Shown one piece after another: positions 1,231 through 64,000 of a DNA stretch of 64,000 nt; the stretch's first letter is position 1; each line of letters starts with the position of its first letter. Both the position numbers and the translations under genes were made by a program. This DNA is from Clavelina lepadiformis (lineage: Eukaryota > Chordata > Ascidiacea > Aplousobranchia > Clavelinidae). The stretch spans positions 5,210,501-5,274,500 of the forward strand of contig NC_135243.1 in NCBI RefSeq assembly GCF_947623445.1. The letters run 5' to 3'. Below the pieces are notes generated by a model. It was not told where the DNA came from. It searched no databases and saw only the letters and a list, made by a program, of their open reading frames with translations.

Positions 1231-1236
1231 TTTATT
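1231..1236 (-). terminator. Poly(A) signal of A1
   Basis: AATAAA on the minus strand, about 280 bases past the proposed A1 stop. The same word sits at the equivalent place in A2 (6245), A3 (11937) and A4 (17437), in closely similar sequence. Confidence 0.45.
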
Positions 1237-1516
1237 TGCAGACATTAACTTTTACAAGAAATAACATATACATAACAAGAAATTAATTCAAATGTATCAA
1301 ATACCAAACTCTCCAAAACCGATAAAATATTTTAACCTTTTAAATTGTTTAAATTGGTGATTTCACAAAAAAATGATGTCACAAAAACAACATTTTTGCA
1401 TATCACGAAAACAATTGACTCACAATGGAGCCTGTGCGGCTACGTAATTGATCTGAGTTTTTGTGCGAAAATATTTCATAAGAGACACTCCAACAATCCC
1501 AGGTAACTTTTTCGCT

Positions 1517-4512
1517 TCATTGCTTTTCGATTATCTCATCTATATAAGAACACATGAAGACAATGTTATCACTGAATGATAACAACATGGCTTGTCCCTA
1601 ATTACTTTGGCATTATTTGCTACGACAAAAATGTTACCTAAAAAGGTTTTTTAAAATTTATATTTAAAAACACACAAAAAATTAGCATCTTGAAAAGATA
1701 TCTTCTATACTTACTGGATTTTTGAATCAGCAGAAAATTTCAAGATCAGGATCAGGATGCTGCAAAACATGCTGCAGTATAAATTCAGTCTAATAATTTC
1801 GGCTATTGACCCGATAAAAACATCGGGGCAAACACCCGTGAATATTTGTGTGCCTATCTGCGGCAACACGGCCCAATGCAATGCAGCGGCGTATTTTGGG
1901 AAAAATGGATAAAACATCATCGTTGGTTGGTTATCATATAAATTAAACGTACCTTTGGTGACTAAGTGGTGGATAAGTATAGCGGACCAAACACAAAAAG
2001 CAATTAACATCACAAGTAAAAGTATTCGGGTCATTTTACTTGTGCGATTCTTTTTGGCTGCAAAATACAGAATTTGACGGTATGCTACATTTTGAGTTGA
2101 AGAGCTTTTATCAACCGATATTTTACCTATAATGGGTGCTTCTTCTTCATACTTGCTGTCGCTTGATTCTGACACCGAATCAGTGTTATCTGACGCTGAT
2201 AAAGAGTGGTTAAAAAATTGTCAAAACAGTATTGAAAATAAGTTTATGTTATGAATTATAAATGACAGGGAAAAGCTCAAGTATTTTGATTACATCGCAT
2301 AACATTGATTAACTTGTTCGAAACATTTGTGCTGAAATTGCAGCGAATTTTTAAAAGTCGGCGTTATGAAAGCTTCTGCTGTATGCAATGGTTTATTTTT
2401 ACCGAACCAATTACTTTAGAATTCACACCGACGCCTTTCCTTAACCTTAAGAATGATTGATAACAATTATTTTTAATTTTAAAAAGAATATAGCGGAAAA
2501 ACCGATTACTAAACTACAAAAAGGTTGTACTATGAAATGCTACATTTTATCAAAATTACGGTACAGAAATAACCTATTATAAGACTTTATTGGAAGAACG
2601 TACAATACTGTATTGTGTATTGTAATACAATACCGTATATATCACCAAACTTACCGTCCTTGACAGTTTCTCCGGGTAGGTTGAGATGAACATTTGGTTC
2701 TGCTTCATCGTCGAGTAGCAGGGAATGTTCTGAGTTTTGGTGGATGAAATATTCATGTTAAAACTATTCATGAAAACTGCAGCTGAATTAACATCAAAGA
2801 ACTTCAACAATGAGCTTTGCCTAAGGTGTATCGCAATGGCAGCAGTTATTTTGTTTTGCTGCAGAGGTTTTTTGATCAAAATGTCGGCAAGTTAATGGCT
2901 TTGAATGCATTTAGTAACCAACATGTGCTTTTTTATTACGATAAATCTTACTATATAGTATTGCTTAGAACATTTTTCCAAGATACATTTTTCATATTTG
3001 TATATTTACTCTTTTTCAGAAACATTAAATTAATGTTTGCTTTAAACACTTCTTCTCAAACAATCGCTATATTTAAAATCGTTACAAAAAACAACAAATT
3101 AAACAATTTACGTACTTAAAATAGGTATACATCAAACAATGTATCGTTTTTCATAACATACCTTCATGGAAAATTTCCTCGTCTTGATTGTTGATGAAAC
3201 TAGTTTCCACCGCCTTCACTGCTGACGTTGAAGCTTCTGATGATTTGTAAATGAAACGTTGGCAGCAAAATAAAAAGCAATGTTACATTACAATGCAAAG
3301 CATTACAGAAAGACAAATCTCTTGAAGTACCACGCCTAATTGGTCACGTTTTGAACCCGAAAAACAGTTGAAAACCAAAATGTTTGACCGATATTGGTAA
3401 AAAGATACATCTTCTTCAAACTCGGATAAATATGTACAGTAAAAGAAGTTTCCTACATTTAAATTGTTTACATTGTTATAACCACAGTAACATATTGATG
3501 TCAACTTAATCCTTTAACACGATAGAATAAAATTAGCGAAAATATAGCAATGGATGGCCATTAAATGTGGACAGGTTGTCAGTTTGGACTTTGGCATGCG
3601 GTTGTAAAGATGTAAGAACAACTCATAACGTCATCGTAAATAAATAGACGGCATTTGATTATGAAATCTCTGGGCAATCGCGGTTTTCGGACTAAATTGT
3701 CAATTTAAAAATCGGTAAAAGAAGCGTAAGCTAAAAATACAAACTTTACTATGTAAATTTGGTATGATAAATTTTAGAAATGTTACAGTTTAACTGCAAT
3801 GTAAAGGATTATCATTAAGTTTTAAATTGTCCAATAGCTGTGGGTTTACAGAAAAAATCAAAAATTGACATTGTGTACTGAAAAAGTTTTTATGAATAAA
3901 AACATGTTTTAAGTCATCAGATATTGATCAAACAGAAATATATTTAATGGAAAAGTGGAAGCCAGGATTTTGATATATGTTAAATGCGAAACGTTGCTTT
4001 AGTTTAATGCTTTAATACAAAACGTGTACTGAATACGATGGAACTTACCTTCAAAGACATCTTCCCGGTCTTCATTTCCGACAAAAGCTAATTCTCCTTT
4101 GTGGAAGTCTGCTGTTGTTGATTCTACAACTGTTGATGGTTAAATTCATTTTAACAAACCTAAGAGCAGTTACTGCACAGTATTGACCTACTTAAATTAA
4201 TCTCATTTCCAACTAAACACGAATTTATTTGCAGTTATAATTTATTGACTGGTGCTATTTACCATTTTTCGTGAGCGAAAACAAAGAAACATTTCATAGT
4301 AATGTATCAAAGCAACAAACTATTTCTTGTTTAACTTAAGCGCTAAAATTTTGTAAAAATTTAAATCGATGAAAATTACTTATCGGTTTTTGAAACTTCA
4401 CTTAAAATATTAAAGCAACACAAAGCACAAAAAAGATATACTTGCCATCATCGATGATTTCTTCTTCTATTTTGGTGATGATACTCATTTTCATTTCATT
4501 GTTACCTGACAT
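1517..4512 (-). CDS. A1: acidic single-pass membrane protein, sub-family A copy 1
   Basis: Seven exons read by eye: 4446-4512, 4049-4123, 3162-3236, 2655-2729, 2127-2195, 1953-2057 and 1517-1539, giving about 162 residues. The start is MSGNNEMKMS, with no signal peptide. Three 75-nt phase-1 module exons follow, beginning ESTTADF, EASTSAV and EHSLLLD. Then comes a Ser/Glu-rich exon, a 69-bp intron and a membrane exon with helix ILLLVMLIAFCVWSAILI after KKNRTSKM. The tail is short (DEIIEKQ) if the conserved TATAG acceptor is used. Intron 1 has a GC donor (G|GCAAGT). Promoter block at 4699-4777; poly(A) signal (reverse) at 1231. The family is not recognised. Likely C-tail-anchored with the N-terminus in the cytosol (inference). 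Divergent from A2-A4; the last exon is the least certain. Confidence 0.6.
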
Positions 4513-4698
4513 CGTTGCTTTGGATGATTTTGAGGTTAAAAAATAAACAAAAAGTGAAAAAAATCTTTTTAACTTAAGAAATATTTACGTACCGTTGATG
4601 TAAAATAAAGAAATGAATAACTTTAGCACGACGTGATACAGAAGTCATTTCACAGACCAAAAGTCACCGAACAAACTATCGAACCTGACAAACGCAAT

Positions 4699-4777
4699 CC
4701 ACGTGCGCAGTTGACTGAGTGATTGTCATTGATGTTGCCACGTAAAGCAAAGTTGGTTACACGCTCCAATGAGCATG
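4699..4777 (-). promoter_or_regulatory. Promoter block of A1
   Basis: Read on the minus strand: CTCATTGGAGCGTGTAACC, then TTTGC, then CAATGACAATCACTCAGTC, then GCGCACGTGG. It lies ~190 bases before the A1 ATG. The same words in the same order precede every other gene of the superfamily in both orientations, so it is probably a shared proximal promoter with an inverted CCAAT box and an E-box-like CACGTG (motif assignment is inference). Confidence 0.6.
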
Positions 4778-4789
4778 ATTAAAATTTAT

Positions 4790-6506: not shown

Positions 6507-9500
6507 TTAACTTGATTCATCAGGAACACTTCTGCAATTGTGTTCGACCTTCAGATTTGGCGACCAGCTTAATAATTTTCTCCCTATACTTTTGCACAAC
6601 AAAAGTATGTTGTTTGTTAAAACAAACACGCTAGTTGGAGTGTTTTAGAAATTATATTTACACATCCAAGAATTTGCTTTTTCTTTATTGTATTTTCTAG
6701 GCCATTAGTTACTTATTAGTTACTAGTTACTAGTTACTTACTTACTAGATTTCAATTCATTGAAAAATTTCGGACTCCGCACTCAGAAAGCTGTAAAAAG
6801 TCAAAATTTAAAGTTGGCCTCAAATAATTGAGTATTGATTTGATTAAAACATAGAAAATTTACGCCCGTAATCCACCGTGGTTATATGTCTGGATTAGTA
6901 TCGGCAAACCTGGCTAACGTTGTTCAACCGTTTATGTGAGAGAAAAAAACATGTTTAAAAACATCCATTTTATAAGTTGGTGGTCGAGTAAACCAAAAGT
7001 ACCTTTAAAGGTGTAATGCAAAATGGAGACGACAGCAACAATGACAGCAATAATTAAAATGCATAGCAATAGATATGCACGACATCTTTCTCTTATACCA
7101 CAGTTCCACTCCACTGTAAAATACATATAAATCAGGTCAGTTGTTACAGTGTGAAGTGTTTATAACGATGCGATACATGTTACCTATATCTGATTCGGTT
7201 TGAAGGCTGCTGTCGCTTGATACACTCTGATCAATATCCTCCGATACTGGTAAATAATGGTTAAAAATAGGGTTAAAACTAAATCAAAAACTAAGAATTA
7301 AACACAAGTCTCTTAATATGCAACGCATAGTATTGATCAAGTTGAATTCGTATTGAAATTACTGCAAATTTTTGAAAATTGACTTCACTAAAATGTACAG
7401 TTAAACAAACGGCTGTAGGCAATGGCACATTCTTAGCAAAAACAATTAACTTAAGTCAAATGGCAAACATCGGTGATTTCCTAAAACCAAATGATAGATA
7501 AACATTTTTATTAATCCAAAACACAAAAAAGTGGAAAAAACTTATTTTTAAACAAAACAAAGGTTCTATAAATTTATTACAAAGATTGTCTTGCAAGTAA
7601 GAACAACACTGTGTAGTGAATATATATCACCAAACTTACCGTCATTGACAGTTTCTTCAGGTACGTTGATGCCAACAATTGGTTCTGTGTCTACGTCGAG
7701 TGGCATCGAATGTTCAGGGGCTTGGGGATAAAGTATTCATGTTAAAACTACATGATTAAACTGTAGTTGAATTAACAAAAGAAACAAATTAAACGCAATT
7801 TAATAATGCCTTTTAACTTAGGTGTTTCGGCAAGATAGCAATCATAATATAGCTTTATCCTTCACGCTTCTGATAATTCGTTTGCAAGTTCATTGTTTTG
7901 AAAAGAGATAGCAACTAACACGACAAATTTTTAATTTTTATGTTTCCTCCCTCGTGATTCGGTTTAACAGTTTCCTTGGCTTAATTTATTACATTTGCAT
8001 TTGCATTTTCATTTTTCCGTCTTTTCGTAACACGTTAAAATTATGTTTGCTTGAAATAATTTTTTCCAAACTATTGCTCAGTTTAAAATTGATCAATAAC
8101 GTATTGTCCGATGATTAATTACGAAAGCTGCAGACGTAAACCAATACAGCTCCAAATTTCATGGAATTGTTTGTTCGTTTAAAAAAAACTTTACATTAAA
8201 CATTGTAGATTCCTTCATGTTATACCTTCATGGATAATTTCTTTGCCTTGGTTGTTGATAAAATTTGTTTCCGTCGCCTTCAATGCTGACGTTGAAGCTT
8301 CTTGTGAATTGCAAGTAAAATATTTTCAGCAAAATTAAACACTATTTTTTTCAAACAAAAGTATAAATCACTTCCGACGTTTTATGGACAGGTAGAACAC
8401 GACAAAAACTTTTGAAAATCTAAATCGTTAATTGATGTTATACTAAAAATTTACATTTTAAGCAAACTCGGTTAAAAGTCATCATATTTACATTTTCTTT
8501 TTTTCAAAACATCTTAATTTGTTTTTGCCTAAAAATATAATATCTTTACCAAAATAATTTACCTTTGCCTAAAATAATTTTAAAAAAAGGAAAAACGTTC
8601 AACAATTTGTTCGTTTAAAAAGGTTTATAACAAACAATGCAGCTCTCTTCATAATATACCTTTGTCAATACTTTCTTCTACTTGTTTGTCGGCGGAACTA
8701 CTTTCTGTCGCCTTCACTGCTGACGTTGAAGCTTCTGGTGATTTTTTTTAAAACATTATCAGCAAAAGAACAAGTCACCGGAAAAACGAAAGCATTTGGA
8801 ATCGTTGACCGTTTTTATAACAAAAAATACATTTTAAGCAAACTCGTATAAATATGTAGCATACTCCTAACATGTGACCTGTGCAGATGGTAATAAATGC
8901 AGTAAAGTTAATGCCAAATTAATACTGTAAAAAGTTATAATGAAGTTGGCAACAAAAATTGATTGGGAAGCTCTGGGTATTGGCGATCCGTGGTTACAAT
9001 TTCCATTTTTAAACCATTGGGAAAGAATTGTAAATTGTGATGGAATTTTTTACTATTTGCATTTGATGTAATAGATGTAAGCAATGTCCCATTTCATATG
9101 TAATATTAATGCTATATTTGAATGGTTTAAAAACTAAGCAGACATAATATATAGCCCAACGAAAATTTTTCTATGAATTAAAGGTTGTTTCGAGACAACG
9201 AATTTTAATAAATAACAAACATTTTTAAAAGCACAGGACAAGTGCATTTAAAAGGATTCATGTTTGTGATATGTGTTAAATGCTTGACGTTGCATTAGTT
9301 CTATGATGTACTTAAAACGTTTACTGTATACAGAAGAACTTACCTTCAACAATGTTTTCCGCGTCTTTATTGCCAGAAAAAGTTAATTCTTTTATATTGA
9401 AGTCTGCTGTTGTCGATTCTACAATTGTCGATTTTTAAACTAATTTAAGTAATTTTTAAAACTATTACGGAATAATATTACAATATCACTGTTACAATAC

Positions 9501-9822
9501 TTCAAGTAATCTTATTTCTAATCAAATGCTAAGTTATTCCAAATCAAAATTTATTGACTACTGCTATTTTACTTTGTTTGTGAGCAAAAAAGATTAAATT
9601 TTCATAGTAAAGTGCTTTATTAAAGTAAAAAATGACACTAATTTTGCAAGGGCTAAAACTTTATAAGATTGTCAATCGATAATAATTACTTGTCGGTTTT
9701 TGGAATTTTCACTTTAAAAATTAAAGCAACTCACGATATATATGCTTGCCATCGTTGATAACTTCTTCTTCTACTTTTGTGTTGCTGATGATGATCTTTT
9801 CGGTTGTATCGTTGCCTGACAT
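6507..9822 (-). CDS. A2: acidic single-pass membrane protein, sub-family A copy 2
   Basis: Eight exons: 9750-9822, 9344-9418, 8660-8734, 8226-8300, 7640-7720, 7184-7246, 7003-7113 and 6507-6583; ~209 residues. This is the fullest A copy. It starts MSGNDTTEKI and has one ESTTADF module, two tandem EASTSA modules, an EHSMPLD module, a VSEDIDQSVSS exon and a membrane exon (helix YLLLCILIIAVIVAVVSIL). The tail of ~25 residues ends RSVPDESS. All module exons are phase 1-1. Intron 1 has a GC donor (G|GCAAGC). The intron before the membrane exon is 70 bp. An alternative last exon starting at TTGCAG|AAGTG would give a tail of only 9 residues and is also in phase. Promoter block at 10299-10377; poly(A) at 6245. 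Function unknown. Confidence 0.7.
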
Positions 9823-10298
9823 ATTTGCTTTTGATGAATTGTGGTTAAAAAAAGTAACAAAAACGGAAAATAAATCGTTTCACTTAAGAAATATAAGTAC
9901 TGTTGATGTAAAGTGTTGATGTAAAGTAAATCAATCAACAAAATTTTCAAAATCAATGACATTTAACAGTTACTTTGGGAAAATAACTAAACAGTTTAAT
10001 GAGTGTTTGAATAAATATAAAACACGGCAAAGAAAATGTAAATACAGGTGATTAGGAATATTTCAAAAACTTATCCTTTAGCGAGCCTCTATTGCCACAA
10101 ACAAACTTGAAATCACACTTAACACTGAAATCACCAAACAATCTCATCAAGACGTTAAAAACAATTTTTACTTGTTAAGTTGATATTACGACAAAATAAA
10201 ATACAAGTTATTTTGTGGTTAACCAACTCAGCATAATACAAAAGTTATTTCACAAACCAAAATTCACAAAACAAACTATGGAACCTGACAAACGCAAT

Positions 10299-10377
10299 CC
10301 ACGTGCGCAGTTGACTGAGTAATTGTCATTGATGTTGCCACGTAGAGCAAAGTTGGTTACACGCTCCAATGATCATG
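10299..10377 (-). promoter_or_regulatory. Promoter block of A2
   Basis: Nearly identical to the A1 block, including GGAGCGTGTAACC and GCGCACGTGG when read on the minus strand. It lies ~480 bases before the A2 ATG, farther than in A1, which allows for a 5' untranslated exon. Confidence 0.6.
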
Positions 10378-12198: not shown

Positions 12199-15100
12199 TT
12201 AACTTGATTCATCAGGGACACTTCTGCAATTGTGCTCGACCTTCAGATTTGGCGACCAGCTTAATAAATTTCTCCCTATACTTTTGCACAACAAAAGTAT
12301 ATTTTTGTCACAACAAACACGCTAGTTAAAGTGTTTTAGAAATTTTATTTACAAATCCAAGAATTTGCTTTTTCTTTATTGTATTTTCTAGGCCTCTATT
12401 TACTTATTAGTTACTAGTTACTTACTTACTAGATTTCAATTCATTGGAAAATTTTGGAATCCGCACTCAGAAAGCTGTAAAAAGTCAAAATTTAAAGTTG
12501 GCCTCAAATAATTGTGTATTGACTTAAAACATAGACAACGCCCTTAATTCGCCTTGGATATATGTCTGGATTAGTATCGGGAAACATAGCCAACGTAATT
12601 CAACCGTTATGTGAGAGAAAAAACATGTTTAAAAACATCCATTTTATAAGTTGGTGGTCGAGTAAAACAACTGTACCTTTGAAGGTGTAATGCAAAATGG
12701 TGACGGCAGCAACAAGGATAGCAATAATTATAAGGCTTAGCAATAGAAATGCAACAAATCTGATAACTTTTACTTCATGGTTCCTCACCACTGTAAAATA
12801 CATATAAATCAGGTCAGTTGTTACAGTGTGAAGTGTTTATAACGATGCGATACATGTTACCTATATCTGCTTCGGTTTGAAGGCTGCTGTCGCTTGATAC
12901 ACTCCGATCAATATCCTCCGATACTGGTAAATAATGGTTAAATTAGGGTTAAAACTAAATCAAAAACAAAGAATTAAACACAAGTCTCTTGATATGCAAC
13001 GCATAGTATTGATCAAGTTGAATTCGTATTGAAATTACTGCAAATTTTTGAAAATTGACGTCATGAAAATGTAAAGTTAAACAAACGGCTGTAAACAATG
13101 GCAGATTCTTAGCAAAAATAATTAACTTAAGTCAAATGGCAAACATCGTCGATTTCCTAAAACCAAATGATAGATAAAAATTTTTATTAATCCAAAACAC
13201 AAAAAAATGGACAAAACCTAATTTTAAACAAAACAAAGGTTCTATTAATCTATTACAAGATTTTATTGGAAGAAGGAACAACACTGTGTTGTAATTATAT
13301 ATCACCAAACTTACCATCATTGACAGTTTCTTCAGATACGTTGATGCCAACAATTGGTTCTGTGTCTACGTCGAGTGGCATCGAATGTTCAGGGGCTTGG
13401 GGATAAAGTATTCATGTTAAAACTACATGATTAAACTGTAGCTGAATTAACAAAAGAAACAATTTAAACTCAATTCAATAATGCCTTTTAACTTAGGTGT
13501 TTCGGCAAGATAGCAATCATAATATAGCTTTATCCTTCACGCTTCTTATAATTTGCTAGCAAGTTCATTGTTTTGAAAAGATATAGGAACTATAGCACGA
13601 CAAGTTTTTAATTTTCATGTTTCCACCCTCGTGATTCGGTTTAACACAGTTTCCTTGGCTCAATTTATTACATTTGCATTTTTCCGTCTTTCAGGAACAC
13701 GTTAAATTATGTTTGCTTGAAATAATTTTTGTCAACTATTTCTCAGTTTAAAATTGATCGATTACGTATTGTCAAATTTTCAATAGGCCTACGCCTACAA
13801 CTTTCATGGAATTACTTGCTTGTTTAAAAAACCTTTACATCAAACATTGCAAATTCCTTTATAATATACCTTCATGGATAAAACTCGTTTTCTTCGCCTT
13901 CACTGCTGACGTTTAAGCTTCTTATGATTTGTATGTAAAACGTTATCAGCAAAATTAAACACTATTTTGTTCAAACAAAAGCATAAATTACTTTAGACGT
14001 GTCAGGGACAGATATCATACAACCCGACAAAATTTTTTGAAAATCTAAATCTTTGACCGATGTTGCAGCATAAAGTTACATTTTAAGCAAATTCGGATAA
14101 AATTTGTCATATTTGCATTTCCTTTTTTTCAAAACACCTTAACTTGTTTTTGCCTAAAATTATAATATCTTTACCTTAGAAGTACAAATTTATCTCTGCC
14201 TAAAATAGTTTTTGCCAAACAATCTGTCTGTTTAAAATCAACCTAAAATTCGGCAAACTTTCAAACTATTTGATCGTTAAAAACGTTTATAACCAACAAT
14301 GCAGCTCTCTGTAATATACCTTCATCGATACTTTCTTCGACTTGGTTGTCGGCTGAACTACTTCCCGTCGCCTTCACTGCTGACGTTGAAGCTTCTGGTG
14401 ATTTGTTTTTAAAACATTATCAACAAAATGACAAGAATTTGGAATTGTTGACGATTTTTATAACAAAAAGATACATTTTAAGCAAACTCGTATAAATATG
14501 TGGAAGACTCCTGACATGTGACCTGTGCGAATGGTAGTCAATGGTAAAGTTGATGTCACTTTCAATTTTAAACAATTAGAAAGGAATTGTTAATTGTGAT
14601 GGAAAACTTTGCCATTTGCACTTGATGTAAGTAAATAGATGTTAGCAATGTCCTATTTCAACTGTAATATTTATGCTATGTTTGAATGGTCTTAAAACTA
14701 AGCAGATATAATATATAGCCCAATGAAAATTTTCTATGATTTAAAGGTTGTTTCTAGACATCGATTTTTAGTAAAAAACAAACATTTTTAAAGGCACAGT
14801 GCCTTTAAAAGGATTCATGTTTTTGATGTGTGTTAAATGCTAAACGTTGCATTATTTGTATGATTTAATTGAAAAGTTTACTGTATACGGCAGAACCAAC
14901 CTTCACAGATGTTTTCCGGGTCTTCATTGCTAACTGAAGTTAATTCTTTTGTATTAAAGTCTGCTGTTGTAGATTCTGCATTTGTTTATGTTGAAATTTA
15001 TTTAAACAAATCTAAGAACAGTTATTGCACAGTACTGACCTACTTGAATTAACTTTGTTTCTAAGCAAAGGCTAAGTTATTCTAAATCAAAATTTGGTGA

Positions 15101-15367
15101 CTATCGCTATTTTACTTTGTTTGTGAGCAAAAAAGATTAAGTTTTCATAGTAAAGTGCTTTATTAAAGTAAAAAATTATCCCCACTTTAGCAAGCGCTAA
15201 CATGTTTGTAAGATTGTCAATCGATACTAATTACTTGTCGTTTTTTGGAGTATTCACTTTAAAAATTAAAGCAACTCACGATATATATGCTTGCCATCGT
15301 TGATAAGTTCTTCTTCTTCTTCTGTTTTGGTGATGATGATCTTTTCGGTTGCATCGTTGCCTGACAT
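12199..15367 (-). CDS. A3: acidic single-pass membrane protein, sub-family A copy 3
   Basis: Exons 15295-15367, 14901-14975, 14320-14394, 13315-13395, 12861-12923, 12677-12790 and 12199-12275; ~185 residues. It begins MSGNDATEKI and keeps the ESTTADF, EASTSAV and EHSMPLD modules. The membrane exon has helix FVAFLLLSLIIIAILVAAV, and the tail again ends RSVPDESS. A second EASTSA-type exon (13870-13920) is 24 nt shorter than normal and has an in-frame TAA, so it must be skipped for a membrane protein to be made. Exon 2 has a weak donor (G|GTTGGT). Intron 1 is again GC-AG. Promoter 15834-15911; poly(A) 11937. Confidence 0.62.
13870..13920 (-). pseudogene. Decayed duplicate module exon in A3
   Basis: It aligns to the 75-nt EASTSA module exon of A2 (8226-8300) with intact splice-site words on both sides (AAG| and GAAG|GTATA). 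It lacks 24 nt and has TAA three codons in. The A4 counterpart (20154-20204) has the same 24-nt loss but a different stop, so the deletion came first and the stops arose separately. Confidence 0.6.
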
Positions 15368-15833
15368 ATTTGCTTTTGATGAATTGGGGTTAAAAAAATT
15401 AACAAAAACAGAAAATAAATCGTTTCACTTAAGAAATATTTAAGTACTGTTGATGTAAAATAAATCAATCATTAAATTTTTCACAATCAGTGATACTTAA
15501 CAGTTACTTTGGGAAAATAACTAAACAGTTTAATGAGTGTTTGTATAAATATAAAATAAGGCAAAGAAAATATAAATACAGGTGACCAAAAAATTTTTCA
15601 AAAACTTTTCCTTTAGCGAGCCTCTATTGCCACACCAAGCTTGAAATCACATTTAACACTCAGGTCACCAAACTATATCATCAAGACGTTAATAACAATT
15701 TTTACTTGTTAAGTTGATATTACCACAAAATAATACACCAGTTATCTTGTGGTTAACAAACACGGCATAATACAAAAGTTGTCTCACAAACCACTTGTCA
15801 CCAAAAAAGTTAACAAACGTGACAAACGCAATC

Positions 15834-15911
15834 AACGTGCGCATCTGAATGATTAATTATCATTAAAGTTGCCACGTCGAGCAAAGTTGGTTTCACGCTC
15901 CAATGAGCATA
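15834..15911 (-). promoter_or_regulatory. Promoter block of A3
   Basis: Same block as A1 and A2 but with several differences around the CACGTG core (here GCGCACGTTG on the minus strand). GGAGCGTGAAACC and GCAAC are kept. About 470 bases before the ATG. Confidence 0.5.
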
Positions 15912-18731: not shown

Positions 18732-21700
18732 TTAACTTGATTTATCAGAGACACTTCTGCAAATTTTTCCGACTATTCTGCTTTGAAGACGAGCATTTTG
18801 GATTGGCTTATCTATGAAAAAGATATGGAAAGGATGTTAACATCAAACAATAACAACATAATGTGGCAGGGATAATTTTCCACAATAAAAGTATGTTTTA
18901 TGTTGTCTGCCAGAACAAATTTTTTACAAATTTTATTTACAAATCCAAGAATTTGCCGTTTCGCAGATATTTTAGCTTTAAGATCACTTAAGACTTACTA
19001 CATTTTTGGATTATTGGAAAGTTTCGGGATGCGCAACTAGAATGCTGTAGAAAATCAAAATATATAGTTGGCCTTACATATTTTGCAGTGATCCCATTAA
19101 ATCAGAATGGCTATAAATCAATGTGGATATATGCCAACTCTACAGTAGTATTGGAAAATATGGTCAGAGTAATATTACCGCTTATTTTACGAAAGTCGTG
19201 CATAAAAACATTGATTTTGTAAGTTGGTAACGTAAAATAACTGTACCTTTGAAGGAGAAATGAAGTGTTAACACAATGCCAACAACAACGATAACAATGC
19301 AGCTTATCATCATAATTGCAATTGTTCGCATGTTGTTTACTAGAGAAATTCTTTCGGCTGAAAAATACGTGTAAACCTGCAGAGATTTGTTACAGTTTTA
19401 TTTAAATAATTCGTAACATTGGAATATACTTTACCCACATCTACTTCAGATCTAAAGTTGCTATGGCTTGTTTCTCCTGAATCATTGTTTCCGGACACTG
19501 GTAAATTAGTGTTATAAAAGTAAAAGTTATAAGCTTTTTTAAGAGTTATAATATTAAATATAAACTAAAAGGTATAAAATTAGTCATACATTGTACTGTA
19601 TACAGATAAACAATTATTTTGACATACAACGCATAGTATTGATCAAGTTTTAAAAAATTTGCATTAATATTGCTCCAAATTTTTAAACATTTAAGTCATC
19701 AAAAGTTACAGTTAAGCAAATGGCTGTAGGCATTGGCAGATTCTTAGTACAAACAATTAACTTAAGTCAGATTGAAAACAATGTCGACTTCCCAACGCAT
19801 AGTATTGATCAAGTTTTAAAAAATTCGCATTAATATTGCTCCAAATTTTCAGATTGAAAACAATGTCGACTTCCCAACACCAAATGATAGACAACAACTG
19901 TTATTAACCGAAGACAGTGAAGTGGAATAACCTATTCCTAAACTACACAAAGGTGGTATTGAAATGTTGTAAGCTTTTGTTGGAAGAACGCACAATACTG
20001 TTTTGTGCACTGTATATGCATTATTTTACTTAAACTAACCTAGAACTAAATTAGTACTATAAAGTAATCTACAAGTAACCTACAACTTTCATAAAATTAT
20101 AGGCTTGTTTAAAAACATTTACATCAAACATTGTGGATTCCTTCATAATATACCTTCATGGATAAAACTCGTTTCCGTCGCCTTCAATGCTTAGGTTGAA
20201 GCTTCTTAAGATTTGTTTTTAAAATGTTATCAACAAAATTAAAAACTATTTTTTTCAAACAAAAGCATAAATTACATTAGACTTTTCATGGACAGGTTTC
20301 ATTGAACCCAAGAAAAATTGTTGAAAATCTAAATCGTTGACCGATGTTGTGGCAAAAGGTTGCATTTTAAGCAAATTCGGATAAAAGTCATCATATTTGC
20401 ATTTTCCTTTTTTCAAAACACCTTAACATGTTTTTGTCTAAAATTATAATATCTGTACCTTAAAAGTACAAATTTATCTTTGCCTAAAATAGTTTTTGCC
20501 AAACAATCTGTCTATTTAAAATCGACCTAAAAACCGACAAACTTTTAAACTATTTGCTCCTTTAAAAACGTTTATAACCAACAACGCAGCTCTCTTTGTA
20601 ATATACCTTCATCGATACTTTCTTCGACTTGGTTGTTGGCAGAAATACTTTCCGTCGCCTTCACTGCTGACGTTGAAGCTTCTGGTGATTTGTTTTTAAA
20701 ACAATTTTAGCAAAATTTAAAACAATAATTTTCTGACAAAATCACAAGTCATTTAAAACAAAACGAATAAATTTGGATTCGTTGACCGATGTTATAGTAA
20801 AAAAGATACATTTTAACCAAATTTGTTGATCAACGTAGAAATAATCTCCGGACATATATACTGTGCAAATGGCAATCAATGCAGTAAGTTTATTCATATA
20901 TGTCAAATTATTACTGTAAAAAGTTAAAATGGAATTAACGACAGCATTTTACTGGAAAATCCTTGAGTTTTTGATTAGGAAGCTATGGGTATTTGCGATC
21001 TGCGGTTACAACTTCCATTTTAAACGATTAGGAAGAAATGGTAAACTATGATTGAAAACTTTTCCATTTGTTCTTGATGTAATGGATGTCAGCAATATCC
21101 CATTTTAACTGTAATATTAATGCTATCTTTGAATGGTCTAAAAACTAAGCAGACATATTATATAGCTCACCAAAAAGTTTTCTATGATTTAAAGAATGTT
21201 TCGAGCCATCGATTTTTAGTACAAAACAAACATTTTTAAAGACACAGGGCAAGTACTTTAACAAATATTCATGTTTGTGATTATGTTAAATGCTAAACGT
21301 TGCATTAGTTCTATGATTTAATTGAAAGCGTTTACTGCATACGGCAGAACTTACCTTCAAAATTGTTTTCCAGGTTTTCATTGCTAACCAAAGCTAATTC
21401 ACTTGTAGTAAAGTCTGCTGTTGTCCATTCTACAATTGTTATTGTTGAAATTTATTTAAACAAATTTAAAAACAGTTATTGCACAGTACTGCCCTACTTG
21501 AAGTAACCTTGTTTCTAACCAAAGGTTACGTTATTCAAAATCAAAATTTATTGACTACTGCTTTTCTATTTTCTTCGTGAGTGAAAACAGAGAAAATTTC
21601 TGTAGTAAGTTACTTTATTAAAGTAAAAAATTATCCCTGGTTTAGCAAGCGCTATCATGTTTGTAAGAATGCAAATCGTTAAAAATTACTTATCGGTTTT

Positions 21701-21826: not shown

Positions 21827-22278
21827 ATTTGCTTTTGATGAATTGTGATTAAAAAGAATAAACAAAAACAAAAAATAAATCTTTTAACTTAAGAAATATT
21901 TAAGTACTGTTGATGTAAAATAGATCAATCAATACATTTTTCACAATCAGTTTAAGTTTTTTTGACACTTTCGGAAAAACATGAAAACAATTTAAAAAAC
22001 ACTTTAACGAGCGCTTGAAGAAAAGGAAACTACACCTGACTAGAATATATTTCAGAAAATTTGCCGTTAGCCGTCCTCCATTCTCACAAACAAACACAAA
22101 ATCAAATTTAACTACCTCATCAAGAAATTGAAAACATTTTTACTTGGTGAGGTGATACTACAACAAAATAAATACCAGTTACTCTGTCTGTTACTGTTAA
22201 CCAACACGACATGATGCAGAAGGTATATGCTAAAACCACTTGCCAGCAAATAAACTTAACAAACTTGAAAATCTCAAT

Positions 22279-33835: not shown

Positions 33836-33861
33836 CTCATTGATGATGTCCTTTGTTGTTC

Positions 33862-45227: not shown

Positions 45228-45567
45228 GATCTTACTTGCTTTATCACTGGCCCAGTTCACTCAAATATTTCTGCATTCTGTTAAAAAGGCTGCAAATATC
45301 AACCCTTTTCGCTGTATGAACATCATTATTGATATCTATAGCCCACTTTGCGTAAACAATTGTACAAATTAAAAGCTAAAACTGACGTTTTTTGTTTTTT
45401 TTAGCTTTACTAAACATTTTCAGCAATCTACTGACAAAGCTTGTTGCTAATCCAACCCACGTATGCACAATGTATCACTGAAGTGAAGCACACCTTGCAC
45501 AAATTAGAACATCGCACACGAAATGCGCCGCTGACTGGGATAAGGTCGGTGAAAATGAAGGCTTGTC

Positions 45568-47740: not shown

Positions 47741-47816
47741 GTTCAGTGGAGCGTGAGACCAGCCTTGCGTCAGCGGACAGGTTCATTGACCTTTCTTCAG
47801 TCAGGTGCGCATGTGG
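47741..47816 (+). promoter_or_regulatory. Promoter block of P2
   Basis: Plus strand: TTCAGTGGAGCGTGAGACCA, then CCTTGCG, then GGTTCATTGACC, then TTCAGTCAGGTGCGCATGTG. The order and spacing match the other blocks. About 380 bases before the P2 ATG. Confidence 0.55.
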
Positions 47817-48198
47817 TGTGTGGCGTTGAGTGAAATTTAATTCCTCATGTCATTTAACAATGTTTTGTTTTTCGACATTGTTTTTTATATCTGGAAAAGT
47901 CGTGGCTTTACCTTGTCATTATATTTGGCTTCGCGTTTCGTATACAGTAAAAATATTGGAATCAAGTGAAGATACTGTATATCATTTAGGCTGTAAGCTG
48001 TAAGCGTTTACAATTGTTTTTTTTCATTAAACTGTTTGAGGTTGAGTATTTCTAGTCATGCGCATTATTTGGTACAAGAGTGCAATATAGGCAGACATTC
48101 TCCTTGCTGTGCTACTGGCAATATCTTAACCAAGCGCAAAAAATGTTTTCAGAAAACAGCTTTATTTTTGTTTTGTGTTGATCTAATTTAAACTCCAG

Positions 48199-49227
48199 AT
48201 GTTTCACAACGACGAATCGAAAGACGAAAAAACTCATAAAAAATCTAATTCTGGTAAGAGTCTGTTAGTTTTTTCTTCAATTCCCCATTTGACTCTCTTT
48301 GTATTATTTCACAGATCAAAAGACCTCTTTCAATGAAACAACGTTACAGAAGTTTGTCTGGGATTATGTATTTTCGTTTCTCATATTGATAGTTTGGTAC
48401 ATAATTTTCGCAATGATCGCAGAAAAGATGAAGGTTTGCCTTTTCACTAATATGCAGCTTTTAGTGTTTATTGGGTGCTTTTTTTTCATTTGACCAAAAG
48501 GAAAATGTGCAGGAACAACGATATAATTTTAAATAACTACATGTTATACCAAATAATAAATTTTTACTCAGGAGGATTCTGTAACAACTGAATACGGCTA
48601 CGAAATCTGTACAGTCCAGAATTTCTCATGTAAGTCTACAGTATCAAACCACTTTTATAATTTTTCTGGAAATAAACATAGGCATAAGGCAGTGTGTCTT
48701 AAAGGAGGCTTCAAAGACTTAAAACTGAGATCTCCATGTTTTTGTTGCACACCTACGTAGAGCTTTAAAAAACCTGTTTAAACCAAGCAGAAGGCTGGTG
48801 TTAACTTTTAGCCAGGGTATTATGCTAGCAGTTGGCGTGCTTCAATATCCAAGGTCGCGTGCAGAATTATGCTAAACATTAACATGAAAGTAGCTAAAAT
48901 TGGATATTTCGACCCAAAGTTTTAATATTTATTTTGCGCTACTGTTAAAAAAGTTTGAATCGTGTTTTTTTTGATGAATGTTTATGGAATAGTAGTCCAA
49001 AGCATACTAAATTGACATGCAAAATTTCACAGAGCCCCATGGAGGATTTTAGAGTAATCATTCTTTTTGTAAGTTTATTATACAATGAAACGAATAACAT
49101 TTTATGTCATTTTTTGGTCTTGACCCTTCCTTGAGGATCTAATCATAATGTAAATCACTAAATAAGGAATAAACTTGATGTGTTTTTATCAACAGCGACA
49201 ATGGCCACTTCCAATTCGAAAGAATAA
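48199..49227 (+). CDS. P2: small single-pass membrane protein
   Basis: Exons 48199-48253 (MFHNDESKDEKTHKKSNS), 48315-48433 (membrane exon, helix YVFSFLILIVWYIIFAMIA), 48572-48629 (EDSVTTEYGYEICTVQNFS) and 49196-49227 (TMATSNSKE, stop TAA); 87 residues. Intron 1 is 61 bp. Phases are 1, 0, 1. AATAAA follows at 49282, 55 bases after the stop. The donor of the membrane exon (GTTTGC) is weak. Exon 3 keeps a GYE motif also seen at the same place in P1 (GYETVYM). N-terminus hydrophilic and charged, with no signal peptide. This is one of the cleanest members, but its function is unknown. Confidence 0.6.
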
Positions 49228-51255: not shown

Positions 51256-52356
51256 TCACGGAAAAGCTGTTGTTGACATGAAATACCAACATAGGCATTG
51301 TGATTATTTCTATACATTAACTCATAAAAATAAAAATGTATATATATATACATTAACTAAGCACATTCTTTTTAAAGTAAATTTTATTTTCACCGTCATT
51401 TAAAAACAAAAGCGATTTCAAAACTCCAATGAATAGATCCTTAAAAAACCGTGACAGGTTTACTATTCTAGAAATTAATTGTAAGCAGTTCTCTTACCTG
51501 TAGATAATGTTTGTCGGTATTGGGCTTGTCTCTTCACCATTTTTATCTTCATATTACAGTTTTTTCTGTACATTTATGAAACAAATTACTGCAGGCCTAT
51601 CAATTAAAGTTTCAATTTACATTGTATAATTTCTTTCTACAGTATGTTTATATACTATAATGTTTGCAAATAATGTTTCTATAGCTGTCATGTGCATTAC
51701 TGCATACATCCGAAATCACAATGATCGCAACCAAAATTGTAATCAAAACGGCACAAATCCCGTAAAATGATTTAGTGTCCTCTGCGACACCACACAAAAA
51801 CCCTGTAAAATAAAAGTTTGAAATTGGTTTACTTCGAGTAAATTTGTTAGAATAAATAGAATAGAATAGAACTGCAAAGAAGAATGTTTGAAAACTTACA
51901 ATTAGCTAAAATATAATCACATAAACCGTATCTTTCTTCGTCATTATTAAGTTGTTCGTTTATCGCATTTCTTCGTTCAGCATTCTCTCGATCGATTGCG
52001 GCAAAATTGACAAGCACAACGTCGCTCTCGGCGTTTCCAACGTCGGCATTCCAGCCCTCGGCATTCGCACAAACCACATTCCCGCCAATGACATTCCCGC
52101 CAACGTCATTCTCGCCAACGTCATTCTCGCCAACGTCATTCTCGCCAACGTCATTCTCGCCAACGTCATTCTCGCCAACGTCATTCCCGCCAACGACACT
52201 CCCGCCCACGACATATTCTCCAACCTCATTCCCGCCAACCGCATTCTCGATATTTCCCTTTAATACATCGTCATGCACGGTATTATCAGCATTTCCTCTT
52301 TCCTCCATCTCGCCATCGGCTTTATTCTTTTCGCATTTTTCTTTGTATTCAGGCAT
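51256..52356 (-). CDS. C1: pentapeptide-repeat membrane protein
   Basis: Exons 51900-52356, 51708-51802, 51498-51546 and 51256-51266; 203 residues. The start is MPEYKEKCEKNKADGEMEER; the upstream GTG is not used. Residues ~40-110 are pentads of the type GENDV or GGNVV, then AAIDRENAERRNAINEQ. After a 97-bp intron the membrane exon has helix YGICAVLITILVAIIVI. The donor is GAT|GTATGC (phase 0), then a basic exon (MVKRQAQYRQTLST) and AFP with stop. If that donor is not used, the frame reads on to a stop at 51648 and, by coincidence, also gives 203 residues. Promoter 52588-52680; poly(A) 51072. No signal peptide; probable C-tail anchor. Confidence 0.62.
52080..52215 (-). repeat. 15-bp coding minisatellite in C1
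   Basis: Near-perfect tandem copies of GTTGGCGAGAATGAC (minus strand), six coding exactly GENDV or GGNDV, flanked by degenerate ones. The near-identity of the core copies indicates recent expansion. Absent or reduced in C4 and replaced by NAEGG-type pentads in C2. Confidence 0.8.
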
Positions 52357-52587
52357 GCTCTCAGTGTTGTTAATTAAATTGAAATTAGGATTAATCACAA
52401 ATCATATCTTAAGAAAATTGTTGTGTTCTATTCATAGAATTGGAAATTGACTGGGATTTATTTTTTCTAAGTTTTCTAATCTAAACAACAACGCGGAACA
52501 CTTGCTCATGAAAATTCTCACCATCAAGTAGCATTGCTGGTCTTACTACACTGAAATTTCTGACTTTCTGCTGCACAATTGTACCTA

Positions 52588-52680
52588 CCGCACAGCACGT
52601 GCTCAGCAGATAGAAAATAAGTGATCAATGAAGGTGACCGGTGCAAGAAACTTTACTACACGCTTCGCTGACCATAAGCA
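52588..52680 (-). promoter_or_regulatory. Promoter block of C1
   Basis: Minus strand: AGCGAAGCGTGTAGTAAAGT, then TTCTTGCACCGGTCACC, then TTCATTGATCAC, then CTGAGCACGTGCTGTGCGG. Almost identical blocks precede C2 (55021), C3 (58761) and C4 (61432). Confidence 0.6.
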
Positions 52681-53775: not shown

Positions 53776-54794
53776 TCACGGAAAAGCTGTTGTTGACATG
53801 AAATAAAAACATAAGCATTGTGATTATTTCTATACATAAACTCATAAAAAAAAAATATATATATATATATACATTAACTAAGTACATTCTTTTTAAAGTA
53901 AATTTTATTTTCACCGTCATTTGAAACAAAGCAATTACAAAAATCCAATGTATAAATCCTTAAAAAACCGTGACAGGTTCACTATTCTAGTTCACCTGTA
54001 GATAATGTTTGTCGGTATTGGGCTTGTCTGTGTCCCGTTTGTATCTTCTTCTCACAGTTTTTCCTGTACATTTATGAAACAAATTACCGTAGGCCTATCA
54101 ATTATAGTTACAATTTACGTTGTATATATTCTTTCTACAATATTTTTTTATACTATGATGTTTCTCAATAATGTTTCTATAGCTGTTATTGGCACTAATG
54201 CATACCGACACAATCACAGCGATCGCAACCAAAATTGCCATCAAAATGGCACAAATCCCGTAAACTGATTTAATATCGTGTAAGAGACCACAATAAAAAC
54301 CTGTAAAATAAAAGTTTGAAATTGGTTTACTTCGAGTAAAACTGTTAGAATTTAGAACTGCAAAGGGGCATTTTTGAAAACTTACAAAGAACGTAAATAT
54401 ATTCACATTCAGCAAGTCTGTCTTCGTCATTAAGTTGTTCATGTATCGCATTTCTTCGTTCAGCGTTCTCTCGATCGATTGCGGCAAAATCGACAAGTTC
54501 AACATTGCCCTCGGCATTCCCGTCATCGGCATTCCCGCCCTCGGCATTCCCGCCCTCGGCATTCGCGCCCTCGGCATTCGCGCCCTCGGCATTCCCGTCC
54601 TCGGCATTCGCGCCAACCACATTCCCGCCAACCACATTCCAGCCAAACACATTCCCGCCAAACACATTCCCTCCAACCGCATTCTCGATATTTCCTTTTA
54701 ATACATCGCCATGCACGGTATTATCAGCATTTCTTCTTTCCTCCATCTCGCCATCGGCTTTATTCTTTTCGTATTTTTCTTTGTATTCAGACAT
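53776..54794 (-). CDS. C2: pentapeptide-repeat membrane protein
   Basis: Exons 54386-54794, 54206-54300, 53996-54050 and 53776-53786; ~189 residues. The N-terminus MSEYKEKYEKNKADGEMEER is almost as in C1, but the pentads are now GGNVF, GANAE and GGNAE, followed by AAIDRENAERRNAIHEQ. The 85-bp intron precedes a membrane exon (helix YGICAILMAILVAIAVIV). Donor TCG|GTATGC, then KKIQTGHRQAQYRQTLST and AFP with stop. The donor of exon 3 is G|GTGAAC. Without the GTATGC donor the frame is open to a stop at 54098, giving a longer Lys/Asn-rich tail. Promoter 55021-55116; poly(A) 53593. Confidence 0.62.
54510..54680 (-). repeat. 15-bp coding minisatellite in C2
   Basis: Tandem 15-base units of the type GAGGGCGGGAATGCC (minus strand), coding pentads such as GGNAE, GANAE, GGNVV and GGNVF. 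Same 5-residue frame as C1 but a different dominant unit. The antisense ORFs seen here exist because the period is a multiple of three. Confidence 0.75.
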
Positions 54795-55020: not shown

Positions 55021-55116
55021 ACCTACCGCACAGCACGTGCTCAGCTGACAGTAGATAGGAGGTCAACGAAGGTGACCCGTGCCAGAAACTTTACTACACG
55101 GTTCGCTGGCCATGAG
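55021..55116 (-). promoter_or_regulatory. Promoter block of C2
   Basis: Minus strand: GCCAGCGAACCGTGTAGTAA, then GTCACCTTCGTTGACCTCC, then AGCTGAGCACGTGCTGTGCG. Virtually identical to the C4 block. Confidence 0.6.
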
Positions 55117-57759: not shown

Positions 57760-58415
57760 TAGTCTGAATTGAACAAACCTACCTGCACAAAGAATAAGTA
57801 AACAACATTGTTATCCGTTGCATTGCATCTTTTGTTCATGATATAATATATATGATACATGTTTACGTTTTATAATAAAAAGTGAAGTTTATATATCACA
57901 ACACATATAGAAAGTTGAGTTTATCGAGTAAGAGCATAGCTAACGACTATATTGCATACCAAAACATATGCAAAGACCGCAAGCAACAATGCAACGCCAA
58001 CGTTAACTAGCAACAAAAATGTTCTGGTGTCACAAAGGTCAGAAAAAAAATCTGTAAAATAAAAGCTCAGTGTGAGTAATGTTGTTAGAATTTAAAGAAC
58101 TCACAGCGTCGTTTCAAACTTACAATCATCGTCATATATGCAATCAAGGTTCCTTTCCGCTATCTCAGTCGAACTTTCTTGGTTCTCCATTGTGGCAACT
58201 TCGCTCTCGGTTTTCCCGCCCTCGGCATCCCGGCAATCCGCAACGCGGCCGCTGGAATCCCCGCCTTTAGTATCCTCGCTTTCGGCATCTCCGCCCTTCA
58301 CATTCTCAATATCTGCATTTAAGGTATCGTCGTGCACGATACTTGCGGTATTGCCGTTTGTTGCATTCTCACCATCAGTTTTACTTTCATCGTACTTTTT
58401 TTCACAGTCAAGCAT
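57760..58415 (-). CDS. C3: acidic membrane protein, diverged C-family member
   Basis: Exons 58124-58415, 57960-58051 and 57760-57783; ~135 residues. It starts MLDCEKKYDESKTDGENATN, recognisably related to the MPEYKEKYEKNKADG start of C1, with degenerate pentads (GGDAE, GGDSS, DAEGG) and an acidic end CIYDDD. The 72-bp intron precedes a membrane exon (helix TFLLLVNVGVALLLAVFAYV). Donor TTG|GTATGC (phase 0), then VGLFNSD with stop TAA. If that donor is skipped, the frame ends at 57921 and gives ~140 residues. Promoter 58761-58852; poly(A) 57339. The acidic part has lost the regular array. Confidence 0.58.
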
Positions 58416-58760
58416 GCTGTCAGGATTGGTGGCGCAATTAAAATTAAAATTAACAAATTATTTCCTAAGAAAATTGTAAAGATTCTTTGATAGAAATGGA
58501 AAACTTTATCCCATTTTTCTATTTGTACAGCACCTTAACCTGTTATGTCTTAAATACTTTTATACGCCGTTTAGTCTAGCCAACTAAATCGTTCAAACAA
58601 ATAACTGTTAACAAAGCAGTGTACCCAGCTTATGGGACTTCTCACCACACCACTTAACATTGTAGGATCGCTTCGCTGGGTATTAAACAAAGTTGTCTTT
58701 GCTTTATTGCTGGTTTTGTTACACTGCAAAGTCTGACTTTCTGCTGCACAATTGTACCTA

Positions 58761-58852
58761 CCGCACAGCACGTGCTCAGCAGATAGAAAATAAGTGATCA
58801 ATGAAGGTGACCGGTGCAAGAAACTTTACTACACGCTTCGCTGGCCATAAGC
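58761..58852 (-). promoter_or_regulatory. Promoter block of C3
   Basis: Nearly the same as the C1 block, including the minus-strand words CTTGCACCGGTCACCTTC and GAGCACGTGCTGTGCGG. It lies ~350 bases before the C3 ATG. Confidence 0.6.
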
Positions 58853-61431: not shown

Positions 61432-61528
61432 ACCTACCGCACAGCACGTGCTCAGCTGACAGTAGATAGGAGGTCAACGAAGGTGACCCGTGCCAGAAAC
61501 TTTACTACACGGTTCGCTGGCCATGAGA
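61432..61528 (-). promoter_or_regulatory. Promoter block of C4
   Basis: Virtually identical to the C2 block at 55021. It lies in the long stretch (61.38-63.99 kb) that duplicates 54.96-57.57 kb. Confidence 0.6.
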
Positions 61529-62461: not shown

Positions 62462-62644
62462 CAGGGTGTCCATAAGGTCTGTGTACATATAGGGAATTTT
62501 GCTAATAAATTTTGTTCCAGAATGCATGAAGGCTCGGTCTAAAGAATTGAATTTAGTTGGTACTTTTAAGCGGACGAGAAGGATGGTCTTACCGTAAGGA
62601 TTGTTTTATTTTTAACCACGTACCCAGACTTTGTAGACGTCCTG
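62462..62644. mobile_element. mariner-like MITE, copy 2
   Basis: CAGGGTGTCCATAAGGTCTG at the left and CAGGACGTCTACAAAGTCTG (reverse complement) at the right, with TA on both sides. It is the duplicated partner of 56070-56249, at the same place in the segmental duplicate. Confidence 0.65.
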
Positions 62645-63749
62645 TATAATGTAGAACAACTTCTGCAAAAGGTTGTCGCAAAAATGTCGAACATTTTGTC
62701 AAATAAAAAAAATCTGCTGCACATGAACCACATGGAAGAACCAAACTTGTAAATATACACAAAATTTTCTTAAAATTATACTTCAACATGTGCCTAACAA
62801 CATTTTTGATTTTTCACTTAGGTCACTTCCTTTTTGAATTGTTGGGAAGCTTTAGATCTGAGATGACAAATTAAACAAATCGAAATGAATCAATAGATGG
62901 AAATGTTCAGCTACAAGACAATGAAATGCAAATTGCTAATTTACAATATGGAATGTTACCAACTTTTATGCCAAAATTTCCGTTGAAAAGGGTTGCGGAA
63001 TATGTATTAAGCATACTATATACATCATATTGTACTCGAATAGCTGTCGCCAGATAATAACATGTCAAATAATTAACTTGGTAACATTTTTTGTTTAAAG
63101 ATTAATGTGAAATTTGGACAATTGCTTGGTATGACTTCGATGGAGATTAGAAGACAAGTAAATTGAAATCTTGGTGAATGTAGATAGATTGTAAGATGCT
63201 AATTAAACTTTGTACGACGAAAAAACTTCACACAAGCCATTTTGCTTTTTTATGCAGGGAATGATTGTTAGATTTTATAACACTTTGTAACCATTAATTC
63301 AAGTACCCAGTCTTCAAATTAACAGTACCAAACTATATACAAAACTGCTTAATCAAAACTTGATCCTTAAACATGTATAATTGCAACACATAAAATTTAA
63401 CAAATGTTAATTTAAACACTTCATTCCACATACGAACTCAAATTCAATTCATTTAACCCTAAACTTGTGCAAATTATGGTGACACTGAATGTTTAACAAA
63501 GTTATTACGTTAAAGTAATAATTTATAGAGTATGGTATTCCAAAAATGGTTGACAATTTACTTGGACGAAAGTTTTATTAAAGCTAAAGGTTTGATTGAT
63601 GGAATTAAATCAAGGATTAGCTGGAGAACAGAAAATAACAAGTTACTCAAGTTCCACGAGTATAGATACACTTAGCTGCTCGTTTGACGGTTCAAACGCA
63701 GCTATAAAATCCGAGTTTAAATTCTCTGCAATACAATTTTGTGCATACC

Positions 63750-64000
63750 AAGTTGAACATCTTTAGTGAACTTTTATTAAATTAATAAATTTACATAAAC
63801 ATATGATCTGCGATAATGTTGGTTATAAACAACTCAATACTGAAAACGTTACGCATACAGGGATTCAGAACGGATTTTCGAAATATCCTGTTGAGATAGT
63901 CGTCTAACCACAGCCATTGTAGCACGTTTTTTTAGGTAGCTAAAGATCTCTTCTGATGTAGCATGAAAAAGCTACTGAGATGAAAACATCAAAACAAGGA
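63750..64000 (-). pseudogene. C5: 3' end of a further C-family gene running off the window
   Basis: Matches the 3' region of C3 (57320-57570) closely, with a reverse AATAAA at 63773-63778 and the last-exon region that follows it. The coding part would lie beyond the right edge, so whether it is intact cannot be judged; partial gene rather than proven pseudogene. Confidence 0.45.

Follow-up and report, generated by a model that had tools for sequence, protein, structure and literature searches.

A clustered family of small membrane proteins in Clavelina lepadiformis with a shared promoter block and a membrane exon that appears to diversify among recent duplicates

INTRODUCTION

Fast-evolving tandem gene clusters are familiar, and their variable part is usually extracellular or cytosolic. 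Among small membrane proteins, the tail-anchored proteins form the GET/TRC40 class, and the yeast wtf poison–antidote genes, which are fungal gamete killers, encode multi-copy, rapidly evolving membrane proteins. For tetherin/BST-2, antagonised by HIV-1 Vpu, positive selection in the membrane domain has been described together with an intramembrane antagonist (PMC2633611). In the Botryllus fuhc histocompatibility region, BHF is described as disordered and retained beneath the plasma membrane, and is reported to have neither a membrane domain nor strong evidence of positive selection; fester, FcoR and fuhc-tm are described as type I proteins that carry signal sequences and immunoglobulin (Ig) domains (PMC12065747). 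Here we analyze a gene cluster of the colonial ascidian Clavelina lepadiformis, where the variable part appears to be the membrane-crossing segment itself, encoded by an exon of its own and changed after several independent duplications with its hydrophobicity kept. The window, i.e. the whole stretch analyzed, comprises 64,000 nucleotides (positions 5210501-5274500 of contig NC_135243.1, which was labeled C4 in our analysis and should not be confused with gene C4).

The family as treated here has seventeen readable loci, with A1–A4, B, P1, P2, M and C1–C3 in the window and C5–C7 and D1–D3 beside it. An earlier note on the window had proposed a hidden superfamily of ten readable genes and one broken gene on a common promoter and exon plan, although its list of readable genes holds eleven. 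As described below, that gene system is real, with details to be corrected as to gene count, acidity, intron phases and annotation. The concentration of recent-duplicate divergence in the membrane exon, with an estimated ratio of non-synonymous to synonymous substitution rates (dN/dS) far above 1, was absent from the earlier note and is a new result.

RESULTS

Divergence and probable selection in the membrane exon

When close pairs of paralogues were compared feature by feature, the membrane exon was the most diverged of the tabulated features in all four pairs. It differed at 22 of 111 positions in A2/A3 as compared to 0 of 70 in the preceding intron, with corresponding values of 21/95 versus 7/85 for C1/C2, 16/92 versus 3/72 for C3/C5 and 28/92 versus 2/72 for C5/C6. 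Exon 2 and introns 1 and 3 of A2/A3 were nearly as diverged as its membrane exon (0.167–0.173 versus 0.198). Pooling the three independent pairs (A2/A3, C1/C2 and C3/C5, together having 100 membrane-exon codons) gave 59 differences in 298 positions of the membrane exon and 10 in 227 of the adjacent intron, a 4.5-fold difference per site (Fisher p = 8.6e-8).

Using NG86, the non-synonymous and synonymous differences (N/S) in the membrane exons of these three pairs were found to be 20/2, 19.2/1.8 and 15/1, respectively, giving dN/dS ratios of 3.6, 3.8 and 5.4 versus 0.58, 0.71 and 0.26 in the rest of each gene, with N:S differing between membrane exon and rest (Fisher p = 0.0016). The non-independent pairs C5/C6, C2/C4, C1/C4 and C3/C6 had membrane-exon ratios of 3.3, 3.9, 1.8 and 1.5 and were left out of the pooled test, as were A3/A4 and A1/A4, which are old, with a synonymous rate (dS) near or above 1. 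All these ratios were calculated with our own exon models; the NCBI records end exon 1 of A2 and A3 15 bases further on, and those extra bases were excluded.

A pooled codon model of the membrane exon, fitted with a bounded optimizer from several starts, gave a dN/dS parameter (omega) of 14.1 with F3x4 frequencies (twice the log-likelihood difference, 2dlnL, 20.5; p = 6e-6) and of 10.5 with equal frequencies (p = 2.9e-5). With any one of the pairs omitted p was at most 8.4e-4, and the two gap-free pairs alone gave 0.0007–0.0008, the alignment of the A2/A3 membrane exon needing a gap of about one codon. The 19-residue core on its own gave p = 4.4e-5 or 3.9e-4, and the flanking residues about 0.03. 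Since dS in the membrane exon (0.05–0.08 in the three pairs) was close to that in the neighboring introns (0.00–0.09), neither local hypermutation nor the import of a distant exon is a likely cause. The core replacements were all of a kind tolerated in membranes (33/33, with 26.7 expected, in four pairs with C5 used twice). Taken together, these comparisons of sequence very probably reflect strong diversifying selection on the membrane exon among recent duplicates, with its hydrophobicity kept.

A gene plan common to seventeen loci

At all of the readable loci (17/17), one or more N-terminal exons are followed by a short phase-1 intron and a single membrane exon, and by a tail where this was modeled. 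The intron preceding the membrane exon is 61–97 bp long and in phase 1 at every one of them, which for the eleven listed genes bears out the earlier range (A1–A4, 69, 70, 70 and 77 bp; B, 80; P1, 69; P2, 82; M, 61; C1–C3, 97, 85 and 72). Intron phases of 1, 0 and 1 had been proposed for B, P1, P2, M and C1–C3. The first two were found in all seven genes, D1 having 1 and then 2, whereas the final phase-1 junction is confirmed for M only (record P0009) and possible in P1 and P2; the models of B and C1–C3 meet a stop codon ahead of a third intron junction. In the A genes all introns are in phase 1 and the internal N-terminal exons are 63–81 bp. One acidic exon was judged by eye to be doubled in A2–A4 (8226-8300 in A2, ~13866-13922 in A3 and ~20150-20206 in A4), the extra copy being open in A2 and, again as read by eye, shortened with a stop codon in A3 and A4, where the decayed exon, being symmetric, could be skipped without loss of the frame. 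Gene C4 is broken, as had been suggested, its exon 1 (321 bases) being out of phase.

The N-termini are polar and, by hydropathy only, the most hydrophobic 19-mer sits in the membrane exon, with mean values of the membrane cores in a narrow band of about 2.0 to 3.3. A net acidic N-terminal part, as described before, is found in A, B, C, P1 and P2, and also in D2 outside the window. The tail after the membrane exon has 2 residues in the NCBI models of A2 and A3 (both ending AF), 3–11 in the B and C models and 29 in M, whereas that of C1 would have 19 if record P0007, which reads into the modeled second intron, is correct; P1, P2 and D2 appear to continue further past the membrane exon. On these grounds the predicted genes very probably constitute a family of co-localized small single-pass membrane proteins sharing the block described next and the gene plan.

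A promoter block confined to the cluster

An 84-bp promoter block, with 18 invariant columns in its alignment, was present upstream of all twelve named loci (A1–A4, P1, B, P2, M and C1–C4), in agreement with the earlier claim. We built a sequence-only profile from 11 blocks, those of C2 and C4 being identical, and it scored 50–77 bits at the twelve loci. The profile was applied to 294,190 bases, made up of the window with its 100-kb flanks plus ten pattern loci from outside the cluster, and yielded 22 matches at expectation values (E) up to 1. Eighteen of these were strong (E ≤1.7e-7) and all fell within contig positions 5,199,594-5,281,665, with three weak matches in the same interval and one outside, at one of the ten pattern loci (L024, E 0.013). 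The matches included held-out blocks beyond the window at 5,199,594, 5,209,103, 5,275,703, 5,278,619 and 5,281,582 (E 1.1e-12 to 9.7e-20).

Genome-wide searches covered the 209-Mb, 95-contig genome. BLAST with the 84-nt consensus gave 11 matches, all of them (11/11) in contig 5.209-5.282 Mb, and a 19-mer pattern allowing at most three mismatches gave 22, of which 12 lay at contig 5.1996-5.2817 Mb and 10 elsewhere, compared with 6 for a reversed control; the block counts are lower bounds because BLAST skips very common words. Thus, the consensus, 19-mer and profile searches did not find the block across the genome without such genes beside it, a pattern that the earlier note had named as refuting the family, and the BLAST and 19-mer results gave no support to the idea of a dispersed repeat or mobile element. 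By the searches made, the putative promoter block is confined to one 82-kb cluster. The upstream regions of C1 (52533-52771) and C3 (58706-58944) are 95% identical, and the coding parts of the two genes ~56%. No membrane exon was recognized after the orphan block near the left end of the window, which is perhaps a remnant of a lost family member.

Database records and apparent lineage specificity

The genes had been expected to escape annotation based on open reading frames and to be hidden, yet NCBI models already exist for A2 (LOC143452316), A3 (LOC143452157, isoforms X1, X3 and X4) and the broken C4 (LOC143452582), and unnamed protein products cover A2, A4, C1 and M, these being derived from a contig of 10,791,168 bases that apparently belongs to a second assembly. 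Moreover, the first exon of B lies within one 869-aa open frame. The membrane exons of A2 and A3 and the junctions preceding them agree with NCBI protein records, as does our model of M with record P0009 from the apparent second assembly. P0009 goes under the public cluster name ATP synthase F0 subunit 8, a label that an automatic procedure probably gave wrongly to a short membrane protein. Isoform X3 of LOC143452157 joins the first exon of A4 (21826) to A3 exons from 13399 and the A3 membrane exon; since this isoform is a predicted model, we take splicing between genes as a lead only. A 5-residue repeat of C1 (52077-52249) is one unit shorter in P0007, from the apparent second assembly, and thus varies in repeat number.

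Queried against the protein database, A2 retrieved 6 records, C2 2 and M 1, with 9/9 being from C. lepadiformis. These three queries needed shared 5-residue words, so that remote relatives are missed. Genome searches with A2, C2 and C3 matched the cluster in 16/16, 10/12 and 9/9 rows, the other two rows having E above 0.7. No Pfam family reached the cut-off for ten family proteins; weak matches to Ac76, Orf78, DUF4064, ROKNT, TMIE, CobT, Arg_decarbox_C and COG3_N were rejected, all being below the curated scores. Literature searches on allorecognition and on transmembrane gene families in C. lepadiformis gave no title on such genes. The fast-diverging, lineage-specific system on a fixed chassis that had been envisaged is thus supported, the predicted family being lineage-specific only apparently, given the nine records above.

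Coordinates and surroundings

Table 1. Predicted genes, membrane exons and promoter blocks, in window positions. Except where exons are stated, genes A1–A4 run from the start codon to the end of the membrane exon.
Feature	Position	Strand	Basis or remark
Gene A1	1953..4512	-	exon model
A1 membrane exon	1953..2057	-	exon model; hydropathy 2.70
Gene A2	7003..9822	-	exon model; NCBI LOC143452316
A2 membrane exon	7003..7113	-	exact match, record P0001
Gene A3	12677..15367	-	exon model; NCBI LOC143452157
A3 membrane exon	12677..12790	-	exact match, record P0003
Gene A4	19247..21826	-	exon model + protein record
A4 membrane exon	19247..19357	-	97% to record P0006
Gene P1, three exons	23263..23683	+	exon model
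P1 membrane exon	23396..23511	+	exon model
Gene B, long acidic repeat exon 1 + membrane exon	26211..28987	-	exon model
B membrane exon	26211..26323	-	exon model
Gene P2, three exons	41448..41946	-	exon model
P2 membrane exon	41703..41812	-	exon model
Tentative gene Q, phase 2, 58-bp intron	44109..44392	-	exon model; partial block only
Gene M, first three exons	48199..48629	+	exon model + record P0009
M membrane exon	48315..48433	+	exon model + record P0009
Gene C1, exon 1 + membrane exon	51708..52356	-	exon model + record
C1 membrane exon	51708..51802	-	exon model + record
Gene C2, exon 1 + membrane exon	54206..54794	-	exon model
C2 membrane exon	54206..54300	-	exon model
Gene C3, exon 1 + membrane exon	57960..58415	-	exon model
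C3 membrane exon	57960..58051	-	exon model
Broken copy C4	60705..61205	-	exon 1 out of phase, 321 bases
A1 promoter block	4691..4774	-	aligned + profile, 75.2 bits
A2 promoter block	10291..10374	-	profile, 77 bits
A3 promoter block	15825..15908	-	profile, 72.6 bits
A4 promoter block	22271..22354	-	profile, 67.2 bits
P1 promoter block	22952..23035	+	profile, 65.7 bits
B promoter block	29304..29386	-	profile, 57 bits
P2 promoter block	42223..42308	-	profile, 50 bits
M promoter block	47741..47825	+	profile, 68.9 bits
C1 promoter block	52587..52673	-	profile, 70 bits
C2 promoter block	55025..55111	-	profile, 62.4 bits; identical to C4 block
C3 promoter block	58760..58846	-	profile, 69.1 bits
C4 promoter block	61436..61522	-	profile, 62.4 bits
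Orphan promoter block, outside profile training set	496..569	+	29.6 bits, E 3.7e-8
Partial promoter block, possibly of tentative gene Q	45512..45558	-	17.2 bits, E 2.8e-4

The cluster has a serpin gene as its left neighbor (contig 5,196,370-5,197,542; Pfam E 5.5e-107) and an aminotransferase-fold gene as its right neighbor (5,292,144-5,293,715; Pfam E 5.5e-53), neither of which gives a hint on its function. Downstream of A4, at window positions 17611-18446, there is an insertion having 78-nt inverted arms (99% complementary) built from a 15-bp tandem repeat; by eye it is a broken mobile element, and the open frames inside it had no Pfam match. Another inverted pair (69 nt, 90%) at 30905-35819, with ~4.8 kb between the arms, encloses acidic open frames (32970-33907) that had no Pfam match above the cut-off. 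An Rfam scan of the window gave 0 families.

DISCUSSION

What could explain a membrane helix that is remade after duplication while staying a membrane helix? As a tentative preference, held with somewhat less than even confidence, we would explain the whole as a cluster of mostly tail-anchored small proteins in which contacts of the membrane helix drive its change. The A, B and C proteins would be tail-anchored with a cytosolic N-terminal part, the shared block would place all the genes under joint control, and an exon of its own would let the anchor change alone. The membrane segment may then contact a variable partner inside the bilayer, a pathogen membrane protein or a host receptor being candidates, and conflict or matching with that partner would drive its change, so that the helix would be remade after each duplication through selection by intramembrane contact. 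Intramembrane recognition as the cause of the selection on the membrane exon is, taken by itself, possible but short of probable. It is unlikely, but conceivable, that the helix itself is the variable recognition element. The cluster would then be a germ-line array of membrane helices encoded as exon cassettes and under diversifying selection, comparable to a variable domain but placed within the membrane, and anchors might be reassorted between tandem genes by in-frame splicing (cf. isoform X3).

Several observations weigh against the preferred explanation. The older pairs had membrane-exon dN/dS ratios not above 1 (A3/A4, 0.39; A1/A4, 0.93), C2/C4 and C1/C4 were singly non-significant (p = 0.09–0.45), and omega for the rest of the coding sequence (0.70 or 0.66; p = 0.15 and 0.09) was indistinguishable from 1. 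The membrane exon, though named in the earlier finding, was singled out after the first divergence table, and the codon test on it rests on 100 codons. With one fixed interface, the changed core positions would be expected to cluster on a face of the helix, which they did not (pooled p = 0.80). Between the two assemblies, the membrane exons of A2, A4, C1 and M differed at 4/146 residues versus 15/427 in the rest, so that the present variation between individuals is not focused on the membrane exon in these four genes. Finally, the flanking charges of the membrane segments favor no single orientation, and the N-terminal parts of M, D1, D3 and Q are non-acidic, M, with 6 K+R and 7 D+E, having been described as acidic before.

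The main rival is paralogue specialization without conflict, whereby the proteins would be small helper subunits of pumps, channels or receptors, the helix being refitted to a new host partner at each duplication and then kept. Small single-pass proteins with variable N-termini would suit such a role, as would an exon that differs strongly between paralogues and not especially between assemblies. However, the repeated bouts in independent sub-families (A, C1/C2 and C3/C5/C6) suggest a continuing driver, and the Pfam search of ten proteins gave no match to a known regulator family; we consider this rival somewhat unlikely. If the membrane segment instead served as an address, its changes sending each paralogue to a different membrane, or a different part of one, and no protein partner being involved, then a lone segment with a short tail, suited to tail-anchored targeting, and changes distributed round the helix would be natural, but the narrow hydrophobicity band and an omega of 10-14, exceeding what retargeting needs, make this improbable.

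That the fast exon is mimicked by relaxed constraint, gene conversion or misalignment is more improbable still. The small number of codons, the gap in the A2/A3 exon and the exchange of sequence between tandem copies, as in the upstream regions of C1 and C3, could be held in its favor, but relaxation predicts an omega near 1, the gap-free pairs are significant alone, the low dS opposes import and every core change kept hydrophobicity. Least of all do we favor a selfish poison–antidote (gamete-killer) cluster, whose membrane poison only a matching antidote would neutralize. A cluster of fast-changing duplicate genes for small membrane proteins, with a promoter block in common, is broadly like yeast wtf; paired long and short products, however, were not apparent in the genes and protein records, and we regard this reading as highly improbable.

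Should the variability of the membrane segment be borne out by transcripts and by more species, the cluster would offer a natural system for helix–helix recognition in membranes and for selection for new helices in a colonial chordate. Literature searches on selection on tail-anchored segments and on intramembrane recognition found no paper.

In comparison with the known systems, the A, B and C proteins resemble tail-anchored proteins in having only one membrane segment, placed close to the C-terminus, and a short tail (2 or 3–11 residues); their polar N-termini, with no obvious signal by hydropathy, would fit as well. M has its 29-residue tail, and P1, P2 and D2 appear to run on. The likeness to yeast wtf lies in multi-copy, rapidly evolving membrane proteins; there they kill gametes, whereas nothing in the genes and protein records here points to killing or to paired products. 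With the Botryllus fuhc region (PMC12065747) the cluster shares being an ascidian gene cluster. High allelic polymorphism is described there; here 19/573 residues differed (four genes, two assemblies). Pfam on ten proteins and the protein searches with A2, C2 and M gave no homology to fester, FcoR, fuhc, HSP40L or BHF (Ig, Sushi, HSP40 and BHF domains), nor to tetherin/BST-2, those protein searches returning Clavelina records only. Like tetherin/BST-2 (PMC2633611), these are small membrane proteins with apparent positive selection in the membrane domain; there, one gene was followed across primates, whereas here the putative selection is between paralogues of a tandem cluster. By analogy, tetherin provides the precedent that an intramembrane antagonist can accompany selection on a membrane domain.

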